Positions 6,249 to 16,129 of a stretch of 64,000 nucleotides of DNA are shown in pieces. The notes below the pieces were generated by a model. It saw only the letters and a program-made list of their open reading frames with translations, did not search any database and was not told the origin of the DNA. The stretch's first letter is position 1, and each line of letters starts with the position of its first letter. Source of the stretch: Pseudoxanthomonas koreensis (GTDB lineage: Bacteria; Pseudomonadota; Gammaproteobacteria; Xanthomonadales; Xanthomonadaceae); NCBI RefSeq assembly GCF_010093225.1, contig NZ_PDWM01000006.1, forward strand, positions 27,094 through 91,093, in the 5' to 3' direction. A program made the translations under genes and the position numbers.

Positions 6249-10745
<4,497 letters not shown>

Positions 10746-10767
10746 TCTGCTGACGGGGATCCAGGGC

Positions 10768-10800
10768 ACGGGCGCGGCGCAAGCCGCGCCCGTTTCTTTT
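10768..10800 (+). terminator. Rho-independent terminator after nirS
   Basis: Perfect 11-base stem ACGGGCGCGGC / GCCGCGCCCGT (10768-10778 and 10783-10793) with a GCAA tetraloop, followed by TTCTTTT. It lies 22 bases past the nirS stop and separates nirS from the convergent mnmG gene. Confidence 0.88.
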
Positions 10801-10850
10801 CCCGGCAACCAGGAAGCCGGCGGGACGGGCGGTTGCCCCTGATGGCGTGG

Positions 10851-12746
10851 CTACACCGCGACGCGGGTACTGCGCCGCTGCCGCTCCAGGTGCACCAGCA
10901 GCAGCGAGATCGCCGCTGGGGTCATGCCGGGGATGCGCTGGGCCTGGCCGATGGTCTGCGGGCGTACCCGCTCCAGCTTCTGCTGCACTTCGGCCGACAG
11001 GCCGCGCACGGCGGCGTAGTCGAACTGCGCGGGAATCGCGGTTTCCTCGTGGCGCTGCTGGCGCGCGATCTCCTCGCGCTGGCGGTCGACGTAGCCGGCG
11101 TACTTGACCCCGATCTCGACCTGCTCGGCCACCCGCGCATCGTCCACGCCCGGGCCCAGCGAGGGCACCCGCATCAGCGCCGCGTAACCCAGCTCCGGGC
11201 GCCGGATCAGGTCCAGCGCACTGGTCTCGCGGCTCACCGCCACGCCCAGCGTCGCTTCCACTTCGCGGCCCAGTGCGTTGGCCGGCGTGGCCCACAGCGC
11301 GCGCAGGCGCGCGGTTTCCGCCTCGATCGCCTCGCGCTTGGCGGCGAAGCGCGCCCAGCGCGCATCGTCGACCACGCCCAGTTCGCGGCCCTTCGCGGTC
11401 AGGCGCAGGTCGGCGTTGTCCTCGCGCAGCTGCAGCCGGTACTCGGCGCGGCTGGTGAACATGCGGTACGGCTCGCTGGTGCCGTGGGTGACCAGGTCGT
11501 CGACCAGCACGCCCAGGTAGGCCTCGTCGCGGCGCGGCGCCCAGCCTTCCTGCCCGCGCACATGGCGCGCGGCGTTGAGGCCGGCGAGCAGGCCCTGCGC
11601 GGCGGCTTCCTCGTAGCCGGTGGTGCCGTTGATCTGGCCGGCGAAGAACAGGCCCGCCACCGCCTTGGTCTCGAGCGTGGCCTTCAGCCCGCGCGGGTCG
11701 AAGAAGTCGTACTCGATCGCGTAACCGGGCCGGGTGATGTGCGCGTGCTCGAAGCCGCGGATGCTGCGCACCAGTTCCAGCTGCACGTCGAACGGCAGCG
11801 AGGTGGAGATGCCGTTGGGATAGATCTCGGCCACGTCCAGCCCCTCGGGCTCGACGAAGATCTGGTGCGAAGCCTTTTCGGCGAAGCGCACCACCTTGTC
11901 CTCGATCGACGGGCAATAGCGCGGGCCGACGCCTTCGATCTGGCCGCTGTACAGCGGCGAGCGGTCCAGCGCGCCGCGGATGATCTCGTGGGTGCGCTCG
12001 CTGGTGTGGGTGATCCAGCACGGGACCTGGCGCGGGTGCTCGCCCGCGTCGCCCAGGAACGACATCACCGGCAGCGGGTCGTCGCCGGGCTGTTCGTCCA
12101 TCACCGAATAATCGAGCGTGCGCCCGTCGATCCGCGGCGGGGTGCCGGTCTTGAGCCGGTCCACCGCGAACGGCCGTTCGCGCAGGCGCGCGGCCAGGGT
12201 GGTGGCCGGCGCGTCGCCCATGCGCCCGGCGCTGTACTGGGTCTGGCCGATGTGGATCCTGCCGGCGAGGAAGGTGCCGGCGGTGAGCACCACCGCGGGC
12301 GCCTCGAAGCGCAGGCCGGTGCTGGTGACCGCGCCACGCACGGCGTCGCCTTCGATGAGCAGGTCGTCGACCGCCACCTGGAACACGGCCAGGTTTTCCT
12401 GCGCCTCGACGATCCGCCGGATCGCGCTGCGGTACAGCGCGCGGTCGGCCTGGCAGCGGGTGGCGCGCACCGCCGGGCCCTTGCTGGCGTTGAGCGTGCG
12501 CCACTGGATACCGGCCAGGTCGGCCGCGTGGGCCATCGCCCCGCCGAGCGCGTCGATCTCCTTCACCAGGTGGCCCTTGCCGATGCCGCCGATGGCCGGG
12601 TTGCAGCTCATCGCGCCCACGGTCTCGATGTTGTGGGTCAGCAGCAGGGTGCGCGCGCCGGCGCGCGCCGAGGCCAGCGCGGCCTCGGTGCCGGCGTGGC
12701 CGCCGCCGATCACGATCACGTCGTAGCGGTGGAAGGAGGAATTCAT
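10851..12746 (-). CDS. mnmG: tRNA uridine-5-carboxymethylaminomethyl modification enzyme MnmG (GidA)
   Basis: A 631-residue FAD protein that, with MnmE, installs the carboxymethylaminomethyl group on wobble uridine 34 of certain tRNAs in the cytoplasm. The N-terminal dinucleotide fold is [11 protein letters not shown], the family signature [22 protein letters not shown] lies at about residues 48-69, and the C-terminal helical domain binds tRNA and MnmE. Length and sequence are ordinary for the family. mnmE is not in the window. It is transcribed towards nirS and away from the candidate small RNA. Confidence 0.97.
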
Positions 12747-12811
12747 CGGGGTGTGACGCGGATCACGATGGAAGAAAACGGCGCGATTCTACGCCAGCGC
12801 CTGGCAGCGAC

Positions 12812-12828
12812 TTGGCACGCTTCCTGCG
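12812..12828 (+). promoter_or_regulatory. Sigma-54 (RpoN) type promoter
   Basis: TTGGCACG-N4-CTGC matches the -24/-12 consensus YTGGCACG-N4-TTGC at every base of the -24 element and three of four bases of the -12 element. The invariant GG and GC are ten bases apart. No coding gene starts downstream on this strand; the next element is a strong terminator, suggesting a short non-coding transcript starting near 12839. Confidence 0.6.
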
Positions 12829-12838
12829 GTAACTATCC

Positions 12839-12960
12839 CGTGCACCCACCGCGGCAAAGTGTCGGGGGACGCCGGCTGGAATTGGAACAGGGGCCAGCCA
12901 TGCGCGCGGAGGGGAAGCCGAGGGGCCGGCAGTCGGGGGACTGCCGGCCCCTGTTTTTTT
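12839..12960 (+). ncRNA. Candidate small RNA, sigma-54 dependent, with repeated GGA motifs
   Basis: The stretch from the predicted sigma-54 start site to a very strong terminator is about 120 bases and has no credible reading frame. It contains six GGA triplets (12867, 12878, 12884, 12908, 12913 and 12938). One is in the 14-base loop of a hairpin closed by GGCTGG (12874-12879) and CCAGCC (12894-12899); another sits at the loop of the terminator hairpin. Repeated exposed GGA motifs are the hallmark of RNAs that sequester CsrA/RsmA. No known RNA family was recognised. Position: divergent from mnmG. Confidence 0.5.
12921..12960 (+). terminator. Strong rho-independent terminator
   Basis: A perfect 14-base stem (12921-12934 with 12939-12952) closes a GGGG loop and is followed by seven T residues (12954-12960). 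It faces right and has no upstream protein gene on its strand, which supports a non-coding transcript ending here. Confidence 0.9.
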
Positions 12961-12992
12961 GCGCGGGCGCCGCGTCCGTGAATCGCGTCACG

Positions 12993-13024
12993 AAAACAGG
13001 CAGCCCGGCCAGGGGCCGGGCTGC
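12993..13024 (-). terminator. Probable terminator of the leftward lipoprotein gene
   Basis: An 11-base perfect stem (13000-13010 with 13014-13024) is followed on the minus strand by CTGTTTT. It lies about 160 bases beyond the stop of the lipoprotein gene at 13183. The rest of 12747-13182 that is not the candidate RNA or these hairpins holds nothing recognisable. Confidence 0.6.
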
Positions 13025-13182
13025 GGAAAGGGCGTCGACGTCCGACAGGGCCGGAACAGGGGGGATCCAGATTTCCCTGCCGGACATCGACATGGTCGTA
13101 GCCGTGCGGGTCAGAACCTGACGCGTCCGGTCACTTCGCCGGGCTAGCTTGCGACCAGTCCACGGCCAAAGCAAGGCCTTTC

Positions 13183-13929
13183 TCAGGGGTTCTCCGTGCT
13201 CTCCGTCGCATTCTGGCGCCGGCTCGTGGAATTGCGCGAGTGGCCGGCGGGACGCGAATCGCCGCGCGCTTCGGCCCGCCGCTCGCGCGGCTGCGCCTGC
13301 CGCGGTGACGGCTCCGCTTCGCGGTTGGCGAAGCGTGGGCCGACGGCGGCACCGGTGCGTGGACCGGCGTCGCCCCCCTGGTAGCCAGGACGCGGGCCAG
13401 CGAACGGACGCTGCGCCGGTGAAGGACCGCGACCGGCCTGGCCATCGCTACCCGTGAATTCCCCGGCACCGATCGCGCCGGCGCGCGGCGTCCGCGGCGG
13501 GCGCGGTGCGTTGCCATCGACGATCCGGTCCAGGTCCCGCCAGGGTGCGCGGTCCAGCGGCGGATTGGCGCCGGCGTGCGGCGGCGGACGGTCGGGCTGG
13601 CCGCCAGGGCGCGGCGGATGCACGGGCGGACGCGGGTAGTGGTGCGGCGGCCGGTAATAGCCGCCTCCCGGGTAGGCGTAGGGCCGCGAGTAGTAGTACG
13701 GAGAGCCGTAGCCGACGCCGAGCGCCCAGCCCGGGGTGTAGCGGTAGCCGTAATAGGGCGAACCGTAGCCGTACACGCCATAGCCGTAACCGCCGTAGCC
13801 CGGCACGTGGTTGTACTGCACCGACGAGCCGCCGCTGTAATAACCGCCGCCGTCGTCGACGTAGCCGTAGCTGGCGCAGCCGCCCAGGGCCAGCGCGCAT
13901 GCCAGGCCGGTGAACAGTCGCAGTTTCAT
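13183..13929 (-). CDS. Low-complexity Gly/Tyr- and Pro-rich lipoprotein
   Basis: A 248-residue predicted lipoprotein of unknown function. The signal peptide ends in ALGGC with the lipidated Cys at residue 18. Residues 20-95 are rich in Gly and Tyr (repeats such as GYGGYGYGVYGYG). Residues 95-135 are rich in Pro and His. The C-terminal 100 residues are rich in Arg, Gly and Pro and probably disordered. Such compositions occur in surface or cell-envelope proteins, but no domain is recognised. Codon bias supports real translation despite the repetitive sequence. Confidence 0.7.
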   Translation of the reverse strand: MKLRLFTGLACALALGGCASYGYVDDGGGYYSGGSSVQYNHVPGYGGYGYGVYGYGSPYYGYRYTPGWALGVGYGSPYYYSRPYAYPGGGYYRPPHHYPRPPVHPPRPGGQPDRPPPHAGANPPLDRAPWRDLDRIVDGNAPRPPRTPRAGAIGAGEFTGSDGQAGRGPSPAQRPFAGPRPGYQGGDAGPRTGAAVGPRFANREAEPSPRQAQPRERRAEARGDSRPAGHSRNSTSRRQNATESTENP

Positions 13930-14074
13930 GGCGCCCCCCTCGGTGTTACATGCAATTACACGATGCGGCCAGCATCGGCAGCGCGGATTGAATCCGTGCT
14001 TAACCCCGCCCGGACCTTGCTGTACCGCTCAGCCCGCGGACAGCCGCCCCGGCCCATACGTTAACCTTTGCCGC

Positions 14075-15031
14075 ATGAGCGACGACCTCCCGACCGCCGA
14101 CGACGTCCTCGCCGCCGCCGCGCGGATCGCCGGCCACGCCAGCCTCACCCCGGTGCTGCGCTCGCGCACCCTCGACGCGCTGGCCGGCTGCGAGCTGCAT
14201 TTCAAGGGCGAACACCTGCAGCGCGGAGGCGCGTTCAAGTTCCGCGGCGCCTGCAACGCGGTCTGGTCGCTGCCCGAAGCCGAGGCCGGCCGCGGCGTGG
14301 TCACCCATTCCTCCGGCAACCACGGCGCGGCCCTGGCCCTGGCCGCGCGCAGCCGCGGCATCCCCTGCCACGTGGTCGTGCCCGACGGCGCGGTCGCGGC
14401 CAAGCTGGCCAACATCCAGCGCCACGGCGCGACCCTGTGGCGCTGCGAGGCGACCCAGGCCGCGCGCGAGGCCACCTGCGCCCAGGTCCAGGCCTCCACC
14501 GGCGCGCACCTGGTCCATCCCTATGCCGACGCGCGGGTGATCGCCGGCCAGGGCACCGCGGCGCTGGAACTGGTGGCCCAGGCCGGGATCCCGGACATCG
14601 TGGTGGTGCCGGTGGGCGGCGGCGGGCTCGCCGCCGGTACCGCCCTGGCCCTGGCCAGCGCCGCACCGGGCTGCCGCCTGGTACTGGCCGAACCGGCCGG
14701 CGCCGCCGACACCGCCCGTTCGCTGACCGCCGGCGAGCGCCGCATCGATTTCGTCCCCGACACCGTCTGCGATGGTCTGCGCGGCGCACTGGGCGCGCCC
14801 AACTTCGCCCTGCTGCAGGCCAGCGGCGCCGAGGCCATCGTGGTCGACGACGCGGCGACCCTGGCGGCGATGCAGCTGGCCTGGCAGGTGCTGAAGCAGG
14901 TGATCGAACCGTCTTCGGCGATCGCGCTGGCCGCGGTGCTGGCCGAACCGGCGCGTTTCGCCGGCCGCCGCGTCGGCGTGGTCCTGTCCGGCGGCAACGT
15001 CGACCTGGGGGCGCTGCCTTGGCGCGGCTGA
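14075..15031 (+). CDS. PLP-dependent threonine/serine dehydratase family protein
   Basis: A 318-residue fold-type II PLP enzyme. The Schiff-base lysine is Lys55 in GGAFKFRGA, the substrate/carboxylate loop is SSGNHG (about 87-92), the phosphate-binding Gly-rich loop is VGGGGLAAG, and the C-terminal SGGN binds the pyridine nitrogen. These features fit catabolic threonine/serine dehydratase or serine racemase-like enzymes without an ACT regulatory domain. The exact substrate is not decidable. The stop overlaps the start of the YdcF-like gene. Confidence 0.88.
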   Translation: MSDDLPTADDVLAAAARIAGHASLTPVLRSRTLDALAGCELHFKGEHLQRGGAFKFRGACNAVWSLPEAEAGRGVVTHSSGNHGAALALAARSRGIPCHVVVPDGAVAAKLANIQRHGATLWRCEATQAAREATCAQVQASTGAHLVHPYADARVIAGQGTAALELVAQAGIPDIVVVPVGGGGLAAGTALALASAAPGCRLVLAEPAGAADTARSLTAGERRIDFVPDTVCDGLRGALGAPNFALLQASGAEAIVVDDAATLAAMQLAWQVLKQVIEPSSAIALAAVLAEPARFAGRRVGVVLSGGNVDLGALPWRG

Positions 15032-15639
15032 AGGGCGCCGGCAAGACGCGTCGCCGCGGCATCGGCGGCTGGCTGTGGCGCCTGCTGCTGCTGGCCGTGC
15101 TGTGGCTGGCGGCGGTGGCGGCATGGATCGTCTGGGTGGGCCAGCGCGACCAGGCCGCGCAGGCCGACGCGATCATCGTGCTCGGCGCGGCGGCCTACGA
15201 CGCGCGGCCTTCGCCGGTGTTCGAGGAGCGCATCCGCCATGGCCTGGACCTGTACCAGCGCGGCTACGCGCCGGTGCTGATCTTCACCGGCGGCTATGGC
15301 AACGGCGCGCGCTTCGCCGAATCGCAGGTGGCGCGCCGCTATGCGCTCAGGCGCGGGGTGCCGGAGTCGGCGATCCTGATCGAATCGGCCTCGCGCACCA
15401 CCCGCCAGAACCTGGTGCAGGCTCGCGCGCTCATGCAGAAGCGCGACCTGCACCGGGTGATCGTGGTCAGCGACCCGCTGCACATGTCCCGCGCGCTGCG
15501 CCTGAGCGACGAACTGGGCATCGACGCGCTGGGCTCGCCCACGCCGAGCACGCGCTTCCGCACGGTGCAGACCCAGTGGCGCTTCCTGCTGCAGGAGGTG
15601 TACTTCTTCCACCGCGACCTGGTGGCCCGGGCGGCGTGA
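15019..15639 (+). CDS. YdcF/SanA-like membrane protein (DUF218)
   Basis: About 206 residues: a short basic N-terminus, one transmembrane helix (about 17-37), then a DUF218 domain beginning ADAIIVLGAAAYD and including GVPESAILIESASRTTRQN and VVSDPLHMSRAL. Such proteins act in envelope biogenesis (SanA, ElyC and YdcF relatives), but the reaction is unproven. There is no ATG before the helix; TTG at 15019, inside the end of the preceding gene, is the best start and implies coupling. Confidence 0.8.
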   Translation: MARLKGAGKTRRRGIGGWLWRLLLLAVLWLAAVAAWIVWVGQRDQAAQADAIIVLGAAAYDARPSPVFEERIRHGLDLYQRGYAPVLIFTGGYGNGARFAESQVARRYALRRGVPESAILIESASRTTRQNLVQARALMQKRDLHRVIVVSDPLHMSRALRLSDELGIDALGSPTPSTRFRTVQTQWRFLLQEVYFFHRDLVARAA

Positions 15640-15700
15640 CGAAACGCGGCGTGGCTGTGCGTATCATGGCCGCGCCCCAACCATGCTCCGCAGGCGAACG

Positions 15701-16129
15701 ATGAAGATCGATGGCACCCGCCGCCAGGACCGCGCGATCGAACTCGTGCTGGGCTACTACGCCGCGTTCAACCGCGGCGACCGCGAAGGCATGCTCGCGC
15801 TGCTGGCCGACGGCGTGATCCACGACCTCAACGAGGGCGAGCGCCAGATCGGCAAGGAGGCGTTCGCCGCGTTCATGCAGCGCATGGACGCCAGCTACCG
15901 CGAACAGCTGCGCGACATCGTCGTGTTCGCCAGCCAGGACGGCGACCGCGCCGCGGCCGAGTACGTGGTCCACGGCGAATACCTGCGCGACGACGAGGGC
16001 CTGCCACCGGCGAAGGGCCAGAAGTACGTGCTGCCCGGCGGCGCCTTCTTCGACATCCGCGACGACCGCATCGCGCGGGTGACCAACTACTACAACCTGC
16101 AGGACTGGATCGGCCAGGTTTCGCGCTGA
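15701..16129 (+). CDS. SnoaL-like / ketosteroid-isomerase-related protein
   Basis: A 142-residue cone-shaped alpha+beta (NTF2-like) protein: VLGYYAAFNRGDREGMLALLADGVIHDLNEG, then a beta-rich half ending ITNYYNLQDW-like. The fold forms a hydrophobic pocket used by isomerases and cyclases; the substrate is unknown. ATG at 15701 is used here, with an in-frame ATG at 15683 as the alternative. It stands alone between the YdcF-like gene and a REP pair. Confidence 0.75.
   Translation: MKIDGTRRQDRAIELVLGYYAAFNRGDREGMLALLADGVIHDLNEGERQIGKEAFAAFMQRMDASYREQLRDIVVFASQDGDRAAAEYVVHGEYLRDDEGLPPAKGQKYVLPGGAFFDIRDDRIARVTNYYNLQDWIGQVSR

Follow-up and report, generated by a model that had tools for sequence, protein, structure and literature searches.

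Expression of the small RNA asX1 has been reported for X. campestris (PMC4652430) and for Xylella cells (PMC12189769), and passages of both sources place asX1 in lists of conserved noncoding RNAs. A text passage of the latter also mentions that asX1 and others "have been linked to virulence," a remark made in passing and with no mechanism given there. In the titles, abstracts, and text passages that made up the literature surveyed, neither a sigma-54 promoter nor a facing partner is described for asX1. Several described systems resemble what we propose for this locus. sX13 (RF02232) acts through C-rich loops on G-rich motifs, according to passages of PMC3771888. In the GlmY/GlmZ pair, a decoy RNA controls another small RNA by way of the protein RapZ, and glmY has sigma-54 promoters (parts of PMC7073468 and PMC6075780). 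Part of another report (PMC8687705) describes a trans-acting sRNA and a cis-encoded antagonist that come from the same place.

We analyzed a 64,000-nucleotide stretch of Pseudoxanthomonas koreensis DNA (the window) in which asX1 appears to be faced, on the opposite strand beyond it, by a second and apparently undescribed RNA gene (here called the partner). Like sX13 and other C-rich-loop RNAs, the predicted partner has a C-rich apical loop complementary to G-rich motifs; unlike sX13, which has three C-rich loops, it has one long hairpin with one invariant loop. The sX13 gene of the window's genome is located elsewhere, and no RF02232 match was found at 12960-13200 up to an E value of 1. The likeness to GlmY/GlmZ lies in a possible decoy RNA with a sigma-54 promoter, but asX1 and the partner, which are encoded face to face, are predicted to pair directly through their loops. 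As in the system of PMC8687705, the small RNA and its putative antagonist would come from one place; here, however, the predicted genes face each other, do not overlap in the window, and match only in their loops.

The small RNA beside mnmG is the known RNA asX1 and is not new as an RNA. The Rfam search matched RF02235 at 12843-12957 on the plus strand with 103.1 bits (cut-off, 70) over all 115 of 115 model positions, and the predicted start is at about 12839 to 12843. What lies outside the Rfam model is the sigma-54 element and the facing complementary RNA. The gene sits between mnmG (10851-12746; TIGR00136, 896 bits), its divergent neighbor, and a lipoprotein-like open reading frame from the ORF list (13183-13929) upstream of the partner, both on the minus strand. 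The latter frame has no Pfam or NCBIfam match, and a gene like it lies upstream of the partner in many relatives, where a G run is often found ahead of its start.

The asX1 fold is well supported by covariation: 95.7% of alignment cells were paired, 18 of 25 pairs had changes on both sides, and none of 500 shuffles scored as high. The earlier note had called a small RNA gene beside mnmG with a 14-bp GC-rich terminator and a T run, and both calls agree with these results, the terminator (12921-12960) being a 14-pair stem at 12921-12952 with a GGGG tetraloop at 12935-12938, followed by T's. Among the 65 distinct asX1 sequences, conservation of unpaired letters was seen in the loop GAACAGGGG, in parts of the linker (GGGG..GC), and in the terminator's GGGG tetraloop. 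Together, the RF02235 match and the covarying fold argue for an RNA.

The same note had read this RNA as RsmY/Z-like, that is, as a sequesterer of RsmA/CsrA. An RsmA-sequestering RNA, RsmU, has already been described in Xanthomonas (in a part of PMC7694677), and asX1 shares with RsmY, RsmZ, and CsrB the character of a small structured RNA with several GGA motifs, six in the window copy, one of them in an open loop. The count of six was correct but hardly exceeds chance (dinucleotide-shuffle mean, 3.5; P = 0.05). Placement of two GGA motifs in hairpin loops was likewise borne out in part: in the predicted fold, GGA reaches into the apical loop of hairpin 1 (GGGGGAC) and that of hairpin 2 (UUGGAAC), but the terminator GGA straddles loop and stem. 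Unlike those of the Rsm/Csr RNAs, the GGA motifs of asX1 are neither canonical nor conserved. A-N-GGA occurs somewhere in asX1 in 14 of 75 loci and not at all in the window copy; GGA is present in the hairpin-1 segment in just 3 of 75 loci; and GGAACAGG of hairpin 2 is absent in 12 of 75, while AACAGGG, the GGGG terminator loop, and the terminator persist (74 of 75 loci retain GGGG in the 3' terminator part). Loss of GGA with retention of the terminator is the pattern that had been named beforehand as speaking against the RsmY/Z reading. In the Rfam search, no CsrA-binding RNA family was matched. We reject that reading, and sequestration of RsmA/CsrA by asX1 seems extremely improbable.

The earlier claim of a sigma-54-type promoter was strengthened. 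With both strands of the window considered, only TTGGCACGCTTCCTGC at 12812-12827 matches TTGGCANGNNNNNTGC exactly; the element (12812-12828, plus strand) has a -24 part TTGGCACG and a -12 part TGC with GG-N10-GC spacing. Since shuffled windows contained a mean of 0.35 exact matches and 29 of 100 had at least one, the single match is weak evidence by itself, and it is conservation that carries weight. RF02235 was searched in 299 genomes of the order, and 75 had a match at an E value of ≤0.001 (68 of these over the cut-off), all of them among the 79 genomes sampled from the window's family. In the flanks of these loci, the best-scoring site had TGGCA, TGC, and exact GG-N10-GC spacing in 75 of 75, always with 12 to 15 nt between the GC and the RNA; as a whole, the promoter reads TTGGCA..TGC ahead of asX1 in these 75 loci. 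Three of the 4 family genomes that lacked an RF02235 match (G091, G245, and G280) keep a diverged copy and the promoter beside mnmG, and the fourth (G247) has lost asX1. rpoN was present in 15 of 15 genomes searched, including the window's own. From the conservation of this promoter, we infer that asX1 is under sigma-54 control in the cell. In G245 (locus L224), the start of mnmG occurs twice in tandem ahead of the diverged asX1 copy.

The element extends beyond the family. In families f3, f11, and f12, 26 of 26 loci inspected have a sigma-54 element between the partner and the mnmG side (6 by a looser pattern). In the single loci inspected from f2, f10, and f5, the patterns used found no sigma-54 element, and no sigma-54 RNA was seen beside the partner. 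The f5 locus (L297, genome G005) carries GGGAACAGGGGCT in the interval from mnmG's side to the partner, where these patterns show no sigma-54 element, as if the putative sponge were under a different promoter there. A second sigma-54-like element was seen about 250 to 300 nt beyond the partner at position ~5012 of L249 (f12) and ~5283 of L250 (f3), where it precedes a small ORF (63 amino acids in L249); many f12 loci have a similar element, in several cases with a CRP-like palindrome just before it.

No clear activator site was found upstream of the asX1 promoter, only a CRP-like palindrome, TGTGA-N6-TCACA. It was present at 9 or 10 of 10 letters in 9 of 75 loci, versus 0.1 expected in base shuffles, and 8 of the 9 are Xanthomonas-type loci (L002 to L008 and L015), where the palindrome stands 23 nt upstream of the -24 element. 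The window has a CRP/Clp-like palindrome with 9 of 10 letters at 12752-12767, 45 nt before its -24 element.

Beyond asX1, a second GAACAGGGG motif starts at a distance of 43 to 233 nt in 73 of the 75 loci. One exception is a locus whose sequence piece ends there (L037), and the other is a locus of changed order (L022, G225:C14). The motif belongs to the predicted partner gene on the minus strand (about 12994 to 13139), whose hairpin, matched by our partner model R2 at 13023-13093 (G000:C66:40116-40186), carries the loop region GGAUCCCCCCUGUUCC at 13053-13068. Among 45 sequences, 95.5% of the hairpin cells pair, 12 of 15 pairs are changed on both sides, and 0 of 500 shuffles scored as high. In the arms of 72 distinct loci, we counted 1,122 Watson-Crick, 192 G-U, 19 A-C, and 33 other cells. 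Because G-U and A-C swap on the other strand, a tenfold excess of G-U points to transcription from the minus strand; the pair list was taken from the minus-strand fold, which biases the count toward minus, but hardly tenfold. The alignment fold scored -27.5 on the minus strand versus -6.8 on the other.

With a permissive pattern, a minus-strand promoter-like element (TTG... and.A...T) was recognized ahead of the partner in 64 of 72 loci; 60 of the 64 have a spacer of 17 or 18. In the window, it consists of a -35-like TTGCTT (13169-13174) and a -10-like CAAGCT (13146-13151) separated by 17 nt; both are weak relative to the consensus, and a stricter scan of 10000-16000 returned no sigma-70 site. 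A terminator-like hairpin with a short T run follows at 12993-13024 (minus strand). Such a separate hairpin was found in 50 of 73 loci, and in several Arenimonas loci the partner hairpin itself ends in T's.

The loop is near-invariant (GGAUYCCCCCUGUUCC); part of this invariance is built in, since loop letters served as the anchor for the loci and for alignment A2. Among R2 matches outside the family, the loop text GGAACAGGGGGAATCC (plus strand) was present in 27 of 29 loci inspected, and the other 2 had one extra base. In the Rfam search, no family exceeded its cut-off at the partner; the only hits were to CC0196, at 18.9 and 15.4 bits (cut-off, 35), and fell on the terminator. We regard the partner as a candidate for a new RNA family, with conservation that spans a bacterial order. 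It may already have been listed without a name, for example, as one of sRNAXcc-5 to -29 (in a part of PMC3744752).

We also considered that the second element might be a small peptide gene or a DNA palindrome instead of an RNA regulator. In the 73 loci examined (a set anchored on the loop letters), a frame encoding IPPVP runs across the loop, and the element is a long inverted repeat. Against a peptide, substitutions are spread evenly over codon positions (96/112/117), the frame ends anywhere from 2 to 582 codons after GTT, and 11 of 73 loci have no in-frame start codon; on these grounds, we reject a leader peptide. A palindrome acting as DNA is at variance with the G-U excess, which is that of an RNA made from one strand. 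Either possibility is very unlikely.

The two predicted RNAs differ in distribution. At an E value of 0.01, the asX1 model R1 had matches in 129 of 398 genomes of the order (125/129 of the window's family). Nine of ten weaker or outlying matches inspected had a -24/-12 element and the partner motif; the tenth (G169) had neither and looks false, and the partner match of that genome lies elsewhere. At an E value of 0.001, R2 matched 265 of 398 genomes, with a single match in every genome listed: 128 of 129 genomes of the window's family and, for the rest, genomes of six other families. In a class-wide sample, 5 of 369 genomes matched, all five within the order. An exact scan of a named collection for the promoter plus GAACAGGGGC matched at least 119 stretches, and 98 of the 119 listed had the partner motif within 500 nt. 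The 21 listed without it comprised 14 from other orders or phyla as judged by record title, all without a partner (chance matches), 4 that end within 117 nt of the match, and 3 relatives (L109, L126, and L210). One matching contig, from a record titled Bacillus subtilis SK7B5 (L136), carries asX1, the partner, and a Stenotrophomonas-like lipoprotein gene and is probably mislabeled or contaminating.

The two elements stay together even where their arrangement differs. In G225, the partner (688177-688248) and asX1 (688370-688481) are both on the plus strand, with mnmG then on the same strand; both members were kept despite the changed order, and the pair therefore need not face each other. At this locus, asX1 and its promoter are inverted relative to mnmG and the partner. 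The genome that lost asX1, G247, retains the partner.

The loop of asX1 hairpin 2 (GGAACAGGGG, 12884-12893, plus strand) is complementary to the partner loop. Among 82 asX1-partner pairs, the shared match was 10 nt in 57, 9 nt in 21, 7 nt in 2, and 6 nt in 2; complementarity thus spanned 9 or 10 nt in 78 of 82, with a median shuffle fraction of 0.01 (largest, 0.87). In L073, the asX1 loop has drifted to ACAGGGGGG with a 9-nt match kept, and in L246, an A-to-G change leaves 6 exact nucleotides, where a G-U pair would remain. Outside the family, three of four f11 loci match the other side of the partner loop, CAGGGGGAATC(C), over 11 to 12 nt (0 of 200 shuffles), and the fourth has a 7-nt match (shuffle fraction, 0.03); matches in f3 and f12 were 5 to 7 nt, mostly within the shuffle range. 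A sigma-54 RNA that is complementary to the opposite side of this loop, as in three of the four f11 loci, favors real pairing.

In the window, opening of ACAGGGG and CCCCUGU is predicted to cost 1.7 and 0.4 kcal/mol, the loops being nearly open, and the net energy is -9.5 kcal/mol. The G-rich loops of asX1 could meet other C-rich RNAs too, and asX1 might be a broad sponge of C-rich-loop RNAs, sX13 included, with the facing RNA as only one mate. sX13 was found in 26 of 26 genomes searched, its loops contain CCCCUG, and it acts through such C-rich loops on G-rich motifs (PMC3771888). However, the predicted net energies of asX1 with sX13 sites of the same genome are much weaker (-4.2 and -3.6 kcal/mol), and a match longer than CAGGGG occurs only with the partner. 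We set sX13 aside as the main mate on the basis of this weaker pairing and regard the broad-sponge explanation as improbable.

The two genes, the conserved sigma-54 element, the covarying structures, and the conserved complementarity, as established at the level of sequence, lead us to favor, by a modest degree of confidence, a model in which asX1 is a sigma-54-dependent sRNA that pairs loop to loop with the facing C-rich-loop RNA, most likely as its sponge or decoy. What we infer beyond the sequence is that asX1 depends on sigma-54 in the cell, that the partner is transcribed, and that the two RNAs pair, along with the direction of control and the targets. A sigma-54 activator would fire and asX1 would be made, while the partner would be produced from the facing gene by a housekeeping-type promoter. 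The C-rich loop of the partner would act on G-rich motifs in mRNAs, as in sX13. By pairing through its conserved loop AACAGGGG, asX1 would offer the partner the same letters as the targets do, titrate it, and release its targets, which are probably G-rich-motif mRNAs. That the partner is found more widely than asX1 and persists in G247, where asX1 is gone, suits a regulator with targets of its own. Several findings count against the sponge: the weak partner promoter, the 5- to 7-nt match in f3 and f12, the presence of the partner without asX1 in G247, the lack of a sigma-54 RNA in the f2, f10, and f5 loci inspected, and the failure of our searches to find an activator site or a conserved target.

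The same loop complementarity would serve the opposite direction of control, in which the partner inhibits and asX1 is the effector. The partner, as an antisense-type RNA present at a steady level, would then silence asX1 until sigma-54 raised asX1 above it, whereupon the G-rich loops of asX1 would act on mRNAs; that asX1 keeps more unpaired G-tracts (the linker GGGG and the terminator tetraloop) is in line with this. Since the partner has a broader distribution than asX1 and persists where asX1 was lost (G247) or not found (f2 and f10), it seems to have a function of its own, and we consider the inhibitor role unlikely, though less so than the broad sponge.

Motif searches before start codons found no conserved mRNA target. 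GAACAGGGG-N2-12-ATG was present in 14 of 14 genomes, at 66 places versus 10 in a backward control in which codon usage is not preserved; asX1 itself accounts for 3 of the 66. Among 30 of the 66 places read, no recurrent gene was seen. In one genome (L321, G106), GAACAGGGG lies 16 nt before the start of rpoN, which as a target would make a feedback loop. Twenty further rpoN genes from 14 genomes had no GAACAGGGG within 150 nt before the start; G247 has GGACAGGG, and G000 and G001 have GGCAGGG near the start. We dropped rpoN as a target, since the motif is not conserved. For the lipoprotein-like gene, CAGGGG preceded the start in 2 of 32 ORFs from named loci (a few of them other frames); GAACAGGGG was found before this gene in G274 and G286.

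A sigma-54 promoter and a facing RNA would tell what turns asX1 on and what asX1 acts on. Confirmation would make the locus a case of a decoy pair whose sigma-54 member contacts the other RNA directly, loop to loop, and would raise the question of the targets of a nearly frozen C-rich loop. More tentatively, as a reading that we judge plausible yet somewhat short of probable, much of the order may possess a two-RNA switch: an RNA present in one copy, whose 16-nt C-rich loop is nearly frozen, and an adjacent sigma-54-fired antidote RNA whose match with that loop has taken different forms, covering the 3' side of the loop in the Xanthomonadaceae and the 5' side in another family. Such a switch, if true, would couple sigma-54 signals to a G-rich-motif regulon posttranscriptionally.
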